Of a stretch of DNA of 20,679 nt, positions 3,631 to 15,946 are shown piece by piece. This DNA is from a virus, in the IMG/VR virus record IMGVR_UViG_3300017746_000214, positions 1 through 20,679 of that record; one strand, given 5' to 3'. Position numbers and translations under genes: made by a program. Numbering within the stretch: the stretch's first letter is position 1; every line of letters starts with the position of its first letter. The notes beneath the pieces are model-generated. The model was given only the letters and a program-made list of their open reading frames with translations, did no database searches and was not told the origin of the DNA.

Positions 3631-5787
3631 TTATATAGGTCTGTTATAATTTAGAAGTTTAATTAATTGTACTTTAACTTTACCAGGTTTACCAACTGAT
3701 GCATCTGTTATTTTTTCTGGTTGATAATAGTGTCCATTTAGGAATATTACATCATCGAAACTAAAATTACGTAGATCTTGATCATCTAATATAAATGTAC
3801 CAGTGACTCTCCTCGCGTTTCTATTATATAGCGATGAAATATATGAAGTCCAGTATTCGTTATACAGAGACACTCCTAAATTAGTTGGGAAGCCTGACAC
3901 TAATGAACCCCAATATGCAACATCATTAAACCATAATAATATTTTACCAGAGTTAACCAAAGGCCATCTTTCATATGGACTAACTAATGGATAAAGTCCT
4001 ATAGAACTCGTACTACCTTCTAATTGCCAATCATCACTTGCAGTTTGTAATCCATTATAGTAAAGTAATCTGGTTTTAGGTTTGATTGGTAGACCAATAG
4101 TTAAAGGATCACCATTCGCATCATCAATAGTATCGTATACTTTTAGTTTAGGTAGAATAAATGAACCATTAAATCCACCACCGTCTATCTGTGAAATAGC
4201 TGTTGGAGCCCATTGAGTTTTAATCTTTCTCTCACCAACTAACAACTCATTACCACTATCAAACTCCAAGTGTCCATATGTGTACTTGTATGCATCTCTG
4301 TGATATTTGTTAATATAGTCTTCATCAGCTTCGTGATCAAACATTATAATATCTGTTTGTGTATCAAATAGAGGTTCAATAATTAGATCTGAGCTCAAAT
4401 CAACTTTTTGAGACCAATCATATATTTCACCACTTGCAATGTAATCACCCCATGATTCTATAATAAATACTGTTGGATCATCACGTCTTGGTGCCATTAC
4501 TAATCTAAACGTAGTTAGAAGATCTTTAATAAAATCTATTTGTTTATAATCACAATCAAATTGAGCAGACACATTAACTTCACCTGGTGATGAGAGAGTT
4601 TTAAACTCATTATCTTGACATCTACCTCCGCTTGGTCCTTGCTCAGACACGACTGCTCTCAGTTTATCACCAACATTATAGTTTTTACCACCATTACCAA
4701 CAGAGATATATCCATTATTACTACCAGTACCTGAAGTATCTAATACCCATATAGTAGTACCTGCATATTTTACTTGTAATTCAATATCACCAAAACCTTG
4801 ACCTATTGAATCAACATCACCTGTAAAATCTGTAGAAGCCTGAAATTCATATGTACCTGTGACAGGCACTGTGTATACTCCAGTAGATAAATTAAAGTTA
4901 TTACCAGGATCAAATTCTGTATCAAACTCTAGGACACCTGGTCCTCCGTCTGTGTTAAAAAGATTTGCTCTAAATGTATTACTACTTTGGCTCGTATCAA
5001 GTTCTAACTGAGATGTATTACCAAATCCACTAACATATATCTTTTTAAAATCATTTTCATCAAAGAAACCACCTGGTTCAATAGAGTAACTTGTTTGTGC
5101 AAATATAGCATCAACTAGAGTCTTTGCTCTAACCATAGGTTTAAACCTTGCCAATGGTAGATCATTATTAGTAAAGTTATGTGGACCTGCGAGTGAGATC
5201 TGTGGATCTGCATTTGTAGGTGGGTTAACATCTCCATGATCTATGAGTGGATATAGTACTTGACCATCTTTTAATCCCTCTGTAAATGTAGGTATAATAG
5301 TAAAACCATTCCATGCTTTGTTAGATGGATATGCTCTCCAACTATCTCTAACATTATCAACATTTAAAATATGATTTAAATCAGATAGATCAAGGTCACA
5401 TAGAGAGGCATCACCTATTGCAGATGCGAAGTCTCTGGTTTCACCTAAAAAGATGATCTCATAGTCATTTCTAAATTTAGTAACATTATTATAGATCTTC
5501 TGTAGTCTAACATGTCCTTGTCTAAAAATAACACCATTAACATAGAGCTCTGCTGGTTTTTTAACAGTTACATCAAAATCAGTGTCTTCGATTAGGAAGG
5601 CAAATTTAAAAAAGAGATTATTCTTGCTAGTCGCAGGAACTCTAAATGATCTACTAAATACTGACTTTGCTTCAGCACTTGTAATGTCCTCTATACTAAA
5701 GTTTAGTTTAATAGCGGACTCTTCATACAGATCAATATAGTATGCATCTGATTTTGTGGTGTCTGAGTATACTTTTAGTTGTATCAT
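3631..5787 (-). CDS. tail hub/baseplate protein with C1q-like insertion
   Basis: A 718-residue protein, probably a tail-tip hub or baseplate component. The N-terminus (IKLNFSIEDI, then FSRSFRVPATSKNN, residues 27-57) matches a pattern I know from large tail proteins of Bacteroidota phages and prophages. From about residue 280 to 390 lies a beta-rich segment whose STGVYTVPVTGTYEF core (301-315) resembles the C1q/TNF-like jelly roll often found in phage receptor-binding proteins. The remainder (about 410-718) is beta-rich with many aromatic residues and no known catalytic motif. It starts 1 bp after the preceding tail gene ends and is followed 1 bp later by a small unknown gene. The hub role is inferred from pattern and context; an adhesin role is the alternative. 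Confidence 0.65.
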   Translation of the reverse strand: MIQLKVYSDTTKSDAYYIDLYEESAIKLNFSIEDITSAEAKSVFSRSFRVPATSKNNLFFKFAFLIEDTDFDVTVKKPAELYVNGVIFRQGHVRLQKIYNNVTKFRNDYEIIFLGETRDFASAIGDASLCDLDLSDLNHILNVDNVRDSWRAYPSNKAWNGFTIIPTFTEGLKDGQVLYPLIDHGDVNPPTNADPQISLAGPHNFTNNDLPLARFKPMVRAKTLVDAIFAQTSYSIEPGGFFDENDFKKIYVSGFGNTSQLELDTSQSSNTFRANLFNTDGGPGVLEFDTEFDPGNNFNLSTGVYTVPVTGTYEFQASTDFTGDVDSIGQGFGDIELQVKYAGTTIWVLDTSGTGSNNGYISVGNGGKNYNVGDKLRAVVSEQGPSGGRCQDNEFKTLSSPGEVNVSAQFDCDYKQIDFIKDLLTTFRLVMAPRRDDPTVFIIESWGDYIASGEIYDWSQKVDLSSDLIIEPLFDTQTDIIMFDHEADEDYINKYHRDAYKYTYGHLEFDSGNELLVGERKIKTQWAPTAISQIDGGGFNGSFILPKLKVYDTIDDANGDPLTIGLPIKPKTRLLYYNGLQTASDDWQLEGSTSSIGLYPLVSPYERWPLVNSGKILLWFNDVAYWGSLVSGFPTNLGVSLYNEYWTSYISSLYNRNARRVTGTFILDDQDLRNFSFDDVIFLNGHYYQPEKITDASVGKPGKVKVQLIKLLNYNRPI

Positions 5788-5788
5788 A

Positions 5789-7363
5789 TTATCCTTGTTG
5801 GCTTTGTATGTTATTAGATAGTCTAAACTTTATTTCGTATTGGAAAAGTTTATCCTTTCTGTATGTCTTTTGTGTATATGATTTGTTAGTTATAATAACA
5901 GCTTCGAAAGATGCAGCTCCATAACCAGGCAAATCATTCAGTAAATTCGTTGGTATCTCTGCTCTAACATCTGGTGATGTAAACAGTGACTCGAGTGTTT
6001 TTGCGTCTACGTCTGAAATATATCCAGTAGTTGCAGTAAACTCTACTACATTAACAGAACTATAAACAGTTTCACCTCTATACTCAGGATCCGATTCCCA
6101 TAGTGCTGCACTAGGGTTATATGATGGAGTATGATATGTGTTTTTATTAGTTGTAATCTTTTTAGTATTCTTTGCTCTAAATACATATTGATCTCTAAAG
6201 CCAAATCTGTTTAACCAACTAACTTGCATTGGTTCGTAATCTAAACAGTCTGGTTCTGTTTTAATGTATAACTGTGGTTCACCTAATGGATATACATTAG
6301 CACCTTCTATAGTCTGACTACATTGATTAGGTGTTAGTGTATCAACTTGCGCAACTACAGGATATATCCAATAGTGTGTCCAATCATCATCATTAATCTC
6401 AAATTCAGCTGCTGAACCATCTGTTCTAGTCAAGTAGACATGCTCTAAATTCTTTGGACCTGATCCTATTGTTGTAAAGAAGTATGGATATGTGAGTCCT
6501 ACACCTTCTCTCCAAGTTGTGTTAGGACCTGCACCATTCGCTACGAAATTAGGAATAATTGGGTTTGCGAGTTCGCTAGTACCATTATACATTACTATAT
6601 AGAATCCATCTATACCTTTGACCCATGATTCAGGAGCAGGGTTACCTAGTCTCACTGAATTAATCCATGATTTAGTTGCGTAGTCCTCTAAACCAACATA
6701 GTGTCTACCTATCATAACATTATCTACAATAGCTGTTGGATATGCATAACCACAATCTTGTATTCTCAAGCGATCTTGGTTATCACTCAGTGGTCTAGAT
6801 ATATCGTTAACATATGTGCAATTGTATATACCTTCAGTATCTCCTATAACTTCTGGTGTAAAGAAGTTTTCTGGCAAACCTTGATCATTTTTATCAAACT
6901 GTCTGTTCCACCATGGTTTAACACCACTAAATACTTGATATGGACCACTACTGAGGTTCCAACTTTCTGGTGATGTTGATGTAGAGTTAGTTACACCAGC
7001 TCTAACATAGTATGAAGTAGATTCATTTGTTGCATCTGATAGTATCTTTGGTTGATTAGATCCGAATGGTTGTGTTGAACCTGACACTGTCGTAGGCACA
7101 TAACCTCCAAGTCTATCTGCATCATCTTTACCAACCGAGACATAACTTTGTAATACTGTTTGTATATCGAAGATCGCTGCGTTGTTGGCGTTCTTTGATT
7201 GGTGTAGAGTTGCTAGAAGTACTGAGTTACCTACCGCTGGAGCTTGATCCCATACTTCTAATACAAAGAATGTATTTGTCATCTCTGGATAGTTGATTGT
7301 AAATATCGTTGGTCCGTATGCTGCGTCTATACCAGCTGGCGTTTGTGCTAATGTGAATGCCAT
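5789..7363 (-). CDS. large tail/baseplate structural protein
   Basis: A 524-residue beta-rich protein. The start (YGPTIFTINYPEMTNTFFVLEVW and then NAAIFDIQTVLQSYV, residues about 16-72) and a later SWLNRFGFRDQYVFRAKNT stretch resemble conserved tail proteins of Bacteroidota phages whose precise role is unresolved. It has no signal peptide, coiled coil or catalytic motif that I can see. It follows the gp10-like completion gene by 1 bp and precedes the putative hub by 1 bp, so it belongs to the same tail operon. A distal-tail (Dit-like) or baseplate ring function is plausible from position; the sequence alone does not decide. The A-rich leader has no Shine-Dalgarno sequence. Confidence 0.6.
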   Translation of the reverse strand: MAFTLAQTPAGIDAAYGPTIFTINYPEMTNTFFVLEVWDQAPAVGNSVLLATLHQSKNANNAAIFDIQTVLQSYVSVGKDDADRLGGYVPTTVSGSTQPFGSNQPKILSDATNESTSYYVRAGVTNSTSTSPESWNLSSGPYQVFSGVKPWWNRQFDKNDQGLPENFFTPEVIGDTEGIYNCTYVNDISRPLSDNQDRLRIQDCGYAYPTAIVDNVMIGRHYVGLEDYATKSWINSVRLGNPAPESWVKGIDGFYIVMYNGTSELANPIIPNFVANGAGPNTTWREGVGLTYPYFFTTIGSGPKNLEHVYLTRTDGSAAEFEINDDDWTHYWIYPVVAQVDTLTPNQCSQTIEGANVYPLGEPQLYIKTEPDCLDYEPMQVSWLNRFGFRDQYVFRAKNTKKITTNKNTYHTPSYNPSAALWESDPEYRGETVYSSVNVVEFTATTGYISDVDAKTLESLFTSPDVRAEIPTNLLNDLPGYGAASFEAVIITNKSYTQKTYRKDKLFQYEIKFRLSNNIQSQQG

Positions 7364-13295: not shown

Positions 13296-13898
13296 TTAAA
13301 TATCAATACTATTCAAGAAATGTTCTAGTTCTCGTTTAGTTATGGTTTTGTTGGGTTTGGATGGAGGTGATCTAAAATCACCGTCATCCTCAGATATAAT
13401 AGATTTATTATTATCTATTATATGTATAGTATCTATATGTTGGTCTTGGAGACCAGTATTCTTGTCCTGGAGACCAGTAGTCTTGTCCTCAAGACCAGTA
13501 CTCTTGTCCTGGAGACCACTAGTCTTGTCCTGGAGACCAGTTTTCTTTATTCTTCTAGGTATAGATAGTGGTTGTTTATTTTCTAATCTACGCATCAAAG
13601 AACCAAAATCTAAATCGTAGTTTGTGGTGTCTTTAATTTGTATCAGGATATGTTCATACGTTAATGAGTCAAAGATGTCTCTAACTGCACTGTAACTACA
13701 TCCAGACAACTCTTGATATTTCTCTCTAGTCCAAATAACTTTATCATTCATTGCATAGTCAGAACCAACCATGATATTTAGAATAATTTTTTTAGATGTG
13801 TGTCCTTTTAATGCTGGACTTTTAGTAATAAAATCGAATGAGTAGTGGAATTTGCCTTTGTTATTATCCAGATATTTCTGTAATGTTTTACTTTTCAT
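13296..13898 (-). CDS. winged-helix replication initiator-like protein with internal repeats
   Basis: A 200-residue protein likely to act as replisome organiser. Residues about 34-90 form a winged helix: KKIILNIM, then WTREKYQELSGCSYSAVRDIFDSLTYEHILIQI. Residues 119-153 are five tandem seven-residue repeats of the type TGLQDK, followed by an acidic stretch and a C-terminal helix (TITKRELEHFLNSI), which may contact a helicase or loader. The repeat DNA is a candidate origin (see separate entry), giving the lambda O arrangement of an initiator gene with its own origin inside. No helicase or polymerase is encoded nearby, so host enzymes would be recruited. A regulatory motif lies upstream. A transcription regulator with a repeat linker is the alternative. 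Confidence 0.65.
   Translation of the reverse strand: MKSKTLQKYLDNNKGKFHYSFDFITKSPALKGHTSKKIILNIMVGSDYAMNDKVIWTREKYQELSGCSYSAVRDIFDSLTYEHILIQIKDTTNYDLDFGSLMRRLENKQPLSIPRRIKKTGLQDKTSGLQDKSTGLEDKTTGLQDKNTGLQDQHIDTIHIIDNNKSIISEDDGDFRSPPSKPNKTITKRELEHFLNSIDI
13394..13439. other. AT-rich inverted repeat beside iterons (possible DNA unwinding element)
   Basis: Directly next to the 21-bp repeats lies a very AT-rich stretch containing a perfect 11-bp inverted repeat, ATATAATAGAT at 13394-13404 and ATCTATTATAT at 13413-13423 with an 8-bp spacer. Iterons flanked by an easily melted AT-rich segment inside an initiator gene is the known plan of the lambda origin, so this may be the unwinding element. 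The sequence features are seen; the origin function is inferred. Confidence 0.5.
13440..13544. repeat. five tandem 21-bp repeats (iteron candidates)
   Basis: Five back-to-back copies of a 21-bp unit (plus strand cttgtcctggagaccagta with 2 more bases) fill this stretch exactly: 13440-13460, 13461-13481, 13482-13502, 13503-13523 and 13524-13544. Units are in codon register with the initiator-like gene. Each has the near-palindromic core CTGG-AGA-CCAG or a variant; the first has a perfect TGGTCT-TGG-AGACCA inverted repeat. The core uses codons CTC, CAG, GAC and AAG, which are uncommon in this AT-rich genome, suggesting selection on the DNA sequence and not only on the peptide. Confidence 0.9.
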
Positions 13899-14008: not shown

Positions 14009-14161
14009 AACAAAATATATAAAACACCTGGAATTATGATAACCAGGAAATAATAACAAACAACTAAAAAGTAAAAAAGAAGGTGTGGCGCACCGTACGT
14101 AAAAAAGAAATAGTTTGTTTGTTACTAATTATATATCTTTTTTTATTTTTGTTTCAATTTA

Positions 14162-14398
14162 TTATGAAATAACTAAAGCTCCTGCATTTGACACAGTTAA
14201 TGTGTATGCTGTTCCGTCTGGAGATAGCATTGTAATACCATTACCACCAGTTCCACCATCAGGTGCAACTACATACAATGCTCTAACGTGTGTTGTATCT
14301 GCATTTATACTTGTAACTTGTCTTCCCATTGCAACTGCACCTGCTTGACCAGCTGATGTTTGTTGACCGAAAGCAACTGAACCATCTCCTGATGCTAC
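14162..14398 (-). pseudogene. in-frame 3' continuation of tail fibre beyond the stop
   Basis: After the internal TAA the same frame stays open for 78 codons to TAA at 14162-14164. It reads VASGDGSVAFGQQTSAGQ, further AVAMGRQ-type repeats, then ALYVVAPDGGTGGNGITMLS and ends TVSNAGALVIS. This is clearly the rest of the beta-roll plus the fibre tip. There is no ATG at the beginning that would make it an independent gene of sensible length. It is either a remnant after a nonsense change (CAA to TAA would do), a sequencing error in the stop, or a read-through extension. Confidence 0.8.
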
Positions 14399-15556
14399 TT
14401 AAGTTCTACCAAAACTAATAGCATATGAGTTAGTAGCTTCTGCATATTGTCCAAAGGCAGCAGCATGTGTACTTGATGCAACTGCATCCTGCCCATATGC
14501 CATTGCTCCTGTGCCTCCTGATGCACTTGCACCGTTACCAATTGCGATTGAATTACTTGAAGTTGCACTTCCTGTAGCTCCTGTTACAGCACTCTGTACT
14601 GAATTAGAACCAGAACCAGCAGTCATACCAGCGGCTCCTCCACCACCTACTGCGGTAGAATCAATTTGTAAATCACCAGTTGCAGTAATGTTTAAACGTC
14701 TGTCTGTACCACCTGCATCTGACATAATAATACCACCAGCTGTTGGTGTTGAGTCTGTTTGTAGTTCTACAGCTTTCATTGAAACTGTACTTGCAATATT
14801 ACCAGTTACATCTTTACCTAAAGCGATAGCGTCTGTAGCTGTTGCTTGTGCTAATTTTCCAATTGCTATTGCACCTGCTGCCAAAGCGTCAGCTTCTTTA
14901 CCAACTGCTATAGCATCTGTTTGAGTTGCAGATGAACCATATCCACCTACTACTGTAGCTCCTTCAGCACTAGCTGTACTAAATGCTCCGAATACTGCAC
15001 TTGAAAATGCTGATGCTGTTGAACTAGCACCTACTACTACAGCTCTACTACCTGATGCATTAGAACTATCACCAATTGCAGTTGATCTTGATCCTGTTGC
15101 TTGTGCTCCATTACCTATAGCTACATCTTTTTCATTTGTAGCATCAGTATTAAAACCAATTGCAACGTTACTTCTAGCAAAAGCGTCATCTCCACCTGCA
15201 TTAGCTGTATTACCAATTGCAATGTTATTACCACTTGTTGCAGTTGCACCATCACCTAAAGCAATAGTATCTGCTGCTGAAGCGTTTGCTGCTACAGTAG
15301 TTAAAGTAGAAGCTGATTGCATAGAATCAGTTCCAGTACCACTAACTAAACCACCTGATGCAATACCTGTTACGGTTGCTGAAGTAAAGTCTGCATTACC
15401 TGTAAATTTAATTGTTGTTGTTGATGCTTCTAGCGGTAGTTGGTTTCCTACACCGTCAGTGATCACTCTGTTTGTTCCGTTGATTGCTGCATTATCGAGA
15501 GTCTTTAAAAGTCCTTCGTATGATGCATTAATCGCTTGTCCTGTTAATGTACTCAT
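14399..15556 (-). CDS. tail fibre with YadA-like head (Hep_Hag) repeats, truncated by TAA
   Basis: A 385-residue fibre or adhesin that probably binds the host surface. The N-terminus (MSTLTGQAINASYEGLLKTL, then TDGVGNQLPLE) is a familiar virion-attachment start in Bacteroidota phage fibres. Residues about 95-245 and 326-385 consist of roughly 14-residue repeats such as NNIAIGNTANAGG and DAIAVGKEADALAAG, the left-handed beta-roll repeats of YadA/Hep_Hag adhesins; a non-repeat section with a Gly-rich hinge lies between. The frame stops at TAA (14399-14401) in the middle of a repeat, and the next 78 codons in the same frame continue the repeats and a C-terminal tip. It lies 33 bp after the NGSW-repeat gene and is probably co-expressed with it. 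Confidence 0.8.
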   Translation of the reverse strand: MSTLTGQAINASYEGLLKTLDNAAINGTNRVITDGVGNQLPLEASTTTIKFTGNADFTSATVTGIASGGLVSGTGTDSMQSASTLTTVAANASAADTIALGDGATATSGNNIAIGNTANAGGDDAFARSNVAIGFNTDATNEKDVAIGNGAQATGSRSTAIGDSSNASGSRAVVVGASSTASAFSSAVFGAFSTASAEGATVVGGYGSSATQTDAIAVGKEADALAAGAIAIGKLAQATATDAIALGKDVTGNIASTVSMKAVELQTDSTPTAGGIIMSDAGGTDRRLNITATGDLQIDSTAVGGGGAAGMTAGSGSNSVQSAVTGATGSATSSNSIAIGNGASASGGTGAMAYGQDAVASSTHAAAFGQYAEATNSYAISFGRT

Positions 15557-15589: not shown

Positions 15590-15946
15590 TTAGGTTAAAG
15601 ACCATGTTCTCGTTTCTGATTCCCATAGTACGTTGTTAATATTCCATATAAATGCTGGTAATGGTGCTTCCTCATTTGCAAGTGCCATCCACCAACTTCC
15701 ATTAATAGGTAGTGTAATATTATATGATTCTGCTAATGCTTGAACCCATGACCCGTTACTAGCTTCAGTTACTCCACGAAATTCACATAACGCTTGCAAC
15801 CAAGAACCATTCACAGCTGATGTTATACCTAAATATTCACAGTATGCTTGGATCCATGATCCATTTGTTGGAACTATTACTACTCCTTCTGATTGAACAA
15901 ATACGTATTCTTGTACTGCACTTGTCATATTACTAGTTATTGCCAT
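15590..15946 (-). CDS. NGSW-repeat protein, probably virion-associated
   Basis: A 118-residue protein dominated by four copies of an 18-residue repeat, each beginning NGSW (residues 28-31, 46-49, 64-67 and 82-85) and continuing with a helical segment such as IQAYCEYLGIT or LQALCEFRGVT. The C-terminus (FIWNINNVLWESETRTWSLT) resembles tail-fibre-associated ends in flavobacterial phages. No enzymatic motif is visible. It stands between the holin-like gene and the tail fibre and may be an accessory fibre, attachment or fibre-assembly protein. A TATATTTG box lies 7 bp before the start codon. The function is unknown. Confidence 0.65.
   Translation of the reverse strand: MAITSNMTSAVQEYVFVQSEGVVIVPTNGSWIQAYCEYLGITSAVNGSWLQALCEFRGVTEASNGSWVQALAESYNITLPINGSWWMALANEEAPLPAFIWNINNVLWESETRTWSLT

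Follow-up and report, generated by a model that had tools for sequence, protein, structure and literature searches.

Why does the fibre gene of this virus carry an in-frame stop codon, with a well-preserved reading frame on its far side? The window, that is, the whole stretch of DNA that was analysed, is a virus record of 20,679 bases and probably a fragment. It encodes a portal, a terminase, a tape measure protein, a weak capsid match and a maturation-protease-like domain. The first four lie on the strand of the fibre gene, which places this gene in a structural-gene location. In addition, profile search detected the YadA_head repeat (PF05658) in the 385-aa part of the product, as in phage fibres built of YadA head repeats. 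The protein is a probable host-binding fibre of a phage, and it presumably belongs to the virion.

Past the early TAA, the minus-strand frame is open for another 78 codons until it meets a TAA at 14162-14164, which is followed by a second TAA. The full-length fibre would have 464 aa, versus 385 aa with the early TAA. The peptide encoded past the stop contains a YadA_head repeat of its own (E = 1.5e-5, profile search) and a conserved C-terminal end, DTTHVRAL...GGNGITMLSPDGT...NAGALVIS, while several stops occur in the remaining two frames of this stretch. When used as a query, this peptide matched 33 loci in viral contigs, the closest being 97-99% identical. The post-stop frame is therefore not a product of chance, given its identity to intact genes, its YadA_head repeat and the stops in the other frames. 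The original prediction had placed the TAA and the 78 intact codons correctly, and its claim that matching repeats carry on in the same frame is borne out by the profile match and by the intact homologs. The features of the locus are listed in Table 1.

Table 1. Coordinates of the fibre gene, its early stop and its mosaic segments in the window
Feature	Position	Strand	Description	Evidence
Fibre gene as it stands	14399..15556	(-)	385-aa ORF with YadA-head-like repeats, ending at the early TAA	ORF list; Pfam YadA_head E=6.8e-14
In-frame TAA	14399..14401	(-)	sense codon, mostly serine, in 18/18 related contigs	
Post-stop codons (78)	14165..14398	(-)	two further beta-roll repeats and conserved C-terminal end	97-99% aa identity to L001-L004; dN/dS; read-through model
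Original gene end, TAATAA	14159..14164	(-)	common to L001, L002, L003 and L005	alignment
Swapped module: fibre end and 3' flank	14119..14641	(-)	88-93% DNA identity to L001-L005	blastn
Second mosaic block, same gene	14837..15353	(-)	86.5% DNA identity to L009/L010, arranged differently there	blastn

In the relatives, the fibre gene is uninterrupted at this site. The position is covered by 18 distinct contigs, some of them near-identical to one another and so not 18 independent lineages, and none of them has a stop there. A natural nonsense allele is expected to have intact homologs that carry a sense codon at the same position, as is the case here. The residue is mostly serine and sometimes alanine; the codon is TCG in the nearest relatives and TCA in several others, including six contigs checked at the codon level. 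At the neighbouring codons 3 and 7, the window has TCA versus TCG in its nearest relatives, and this phage encodes serine mainly by TCA (181 TCA versus 11 TCG). A change from TCA to TAA takes a single base. Hence the earlier proposal that one base change explains the stop holds, whereas its example of CAA to TAA is not supported, since the relatives have serine or alanine at this position and not glutamine, and a CAA origin was rejected. Slippage, which had been considered unlikely, is indeed so: the frame is the same on both sides of the stop, and the relatives align there without an indel. The search for and alignment of relatives, proposed earlier as a check, thus found every covering contig open at the site.

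The part of the gene beyond the stop was under purifying selection in the past. Between the window and its relatives, dN is 0.012-0.018 and dS 0.36-0.41 after the stop, as compared to 0.064-0.109 and 0.24-0.66, respectively, in the 60 codons before it. Relative to the nearest relatives, dN/dS is about 0.03-0.05 in the post-stop part and 0.13-0.45 in the pre-stop part. The window has 10 private synonymous changes after the stop, and its only private amino-acid difference there is D61. Because most outgroups have the same residue as the window at D61, this change more plausibly occurred on the other branch, and no amino-acid change after the stop can be assigned to the window branch. If the whole window branch had been unconstrained, about 23-28 amino-acid changes would be expected, taking every private synonymous change to have occurred on that branch. 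As a rough bound, the unconstrained fraction of the branch is at most about 13%, or 26% if only half of these changes lie there. A young stop, an erroneous one and one that is read through would all fit, and the substitution data alone do not separate these cases. Preservation of the frame beyond a stop points to recency or error; on its own, it does not indicate read-through.

The gene is also mosaic. The end of the fibre and its 3' flank, a segment of about 520 bases, are a swapped module, because the contigs that match it so closely (L001-L005) show only 67-76% identity in their other stretches matching the window (blastn). After a shared GGNGIT module, the relatives carry differing ends, which is the pattern expected if phages exchange the ends of their fibres. 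In one related contig (L046), two adjacent fibre genes of the same family are present (3681-4973 and 5001-6833), versus one in the window. No match to the fibre or its end was found among named phage records, and no relative of the fibre end was found in bacterial genomes. The terminase has matches among phage records, all of them below 60% identity (31% for the record listed first). No host was assigned, given these low terminase matches and the lack of a fibre match in a named phage.

Several other features were noticed around the gene. A promoter-like TTGAAA-18-TATAAT (14157-14128, minus strand; 11 of 12 matches) lies just past the fibre gene and is conserved after the same gene end in L001, L002, L003 and L005; the region overall has no excess of such sites. 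A terminator-like hairpin of 13 pairs with a T run (14008-13979, minus strand) separates the fibre gene from the next gene (13296-13898, minus strand), which encodes five copies of a short TGLQDK-like repeated peptide. Upstream of the fibre gene, a 118-aa protein (15593-15946, minus strand) carries four NGSW-containing repeats and has only a weak match to an unnamed family.

For structure prediction, the C-terminal 165 residues, read through the stop, were modelled as a monomer; known YadA-like heads are trimers. The model is a beta-roll. Its confidence is good in the middle (block means of 81-96 for residues 31-120) and low towards either end. Beta-strands are predicted at 81-83, 95-97 and 109-111, and the stop corresponds to residue 87 of the modelled fragment. 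The stop therefore lies in a gap between the regular strands, and two strands would be lost together with the C-terminal end.

Taken together, we consider it probable that the early TAA arose recently, when one base of a serine codon was changed in the C-terminal module of a mosaic YadA-head-like fibre gene, and that the phage population indeed carries this nonsense change. A single base change from a serine codon to TAA would leave a fibre without its last two predicted beta-roll repeats and its C-terminal end. The product may be a shorter or a non-functional fibre, and fibre function would likely be altered or lost. Such a truncation could be tolerated, since a fibre gene may be non-essential or soon replaced.

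The main rival is an error in the consensus or assembly, the population having a sense codon and the TAA being a miscalled base or part of a chimeric or low-coverage stretch in this repeat-rich mosaic gene. The stop is known from a single contig and is absent from all the others, and the searches returned no near-identical contig from other samples. The near-total lack of decay after it is equally expected of an error or of a read-through stop. Moreover, the change implied from a serine codon is C to A, a common damage-type error. However, the contig does not look error-rich: in a scan of homologous frames covering about 10.6 of the 20.7 kb, this TAA was the sole stop interrupting coding-strand homology. 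The scan flagged further stops, but these belonged to the other strand, to a different frame of the portal gene or to a gene's own end. The differences near the stop are also ordinary synonymous ones. An error is thus possible, but we hold it to be the less likely of the two. Both the nonsense variant and the base error offered by the original prediction fit the data; its CAA origin is unsupported, and its read-through option finds no positive support. In either case, the early stop would be nothing out of the ordinary, whether the truncation is very recent or the sequence is in error.

Read-through would mean that the TAA is leaky, so that a fibre would usually stop at 385 aa and occasionally extend to 464 aa, giving two fibre lengths within one virion population. 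The intact and formerly constrained frame would suit this option, but recency explains the lack of decay equally well. Programmed read-through is expected to combine a conserved stop with coding selection after it; here the selection is present, but no relative has a stop at the site. Furthermore, of the three stops, TAA is as a rule the one least prone to leak in bacteria, and it is the regular terminator of this phage, ending 21 of 25 genes. A suppressor tRNA was also considered; the window, itself probably a fragment, contains no tRNA gene. In the literature searched, no precedent for read-through of a tail-fibre stop was found, a P2-like case concerning a frameshift. We therefore regard a leaky TAA as improbable. 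Still more doubtful is a split gene, in which translation would restart at an in-frame ATG (14329), and the C-terminal 55 aa would be made separately and then join the fibre. Such an ORF is present (14329-14162), but its ATG lies 69 bases past the stop and is a conserved Met of intact fibres, so that it is not there as a start, and no relative has a split version. Finally, reassignment of the stop codon is ruled out in practice, since a recoded TAA should be avoided as a terminator and frequent in frame, whereas here it is the regular terminator (TAG and TGA end two genes each) and only one in-frame case interrupts coding-strand homology.

If real, the stop shows a natural truncation of a fibre shortly after its origin, in a family of genes whose ends are exchanged between phages, although it adds little to what is known of the turnover of fibre genes. 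The nearest folds to the fibre are YadA-like heads (for example, 3s6l and 3wp8). By profile and fold, the fibre shares the beta-roll repeat of the heads of trimeric autotransporter adhesins such as BoaA (3s6l), AtaA (3wp8) and YadA (1p9h). Unlike in these adhesins, the repeat lies here in a phage structural module, and the profile scan found no autotransporter anchor domain. Loss of fibres by tiny changes is well known from precedents such as the side tail fibre gene stf of lambda. This fibre is absent in the laboratory strain. Mutations that abolish it occur readily, and growth in top agar selects for them; among 21 large-plaque mutants, 19 were mutated in stf, mostly by insertion or deletion of a single base (PMC2762979). 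The lambda fibre belongs to a different family, and its lesions are mostly frameshifts in single-base runs, whereas the present one is an in-frame nonsense codon seen in sequence alone. Nevertheless, lambda shows that fibre loss can be tolerated or even favoured (PMC2762979), and in both phages a fibre gene is broken by a tiny change while its downstream part is still intact.
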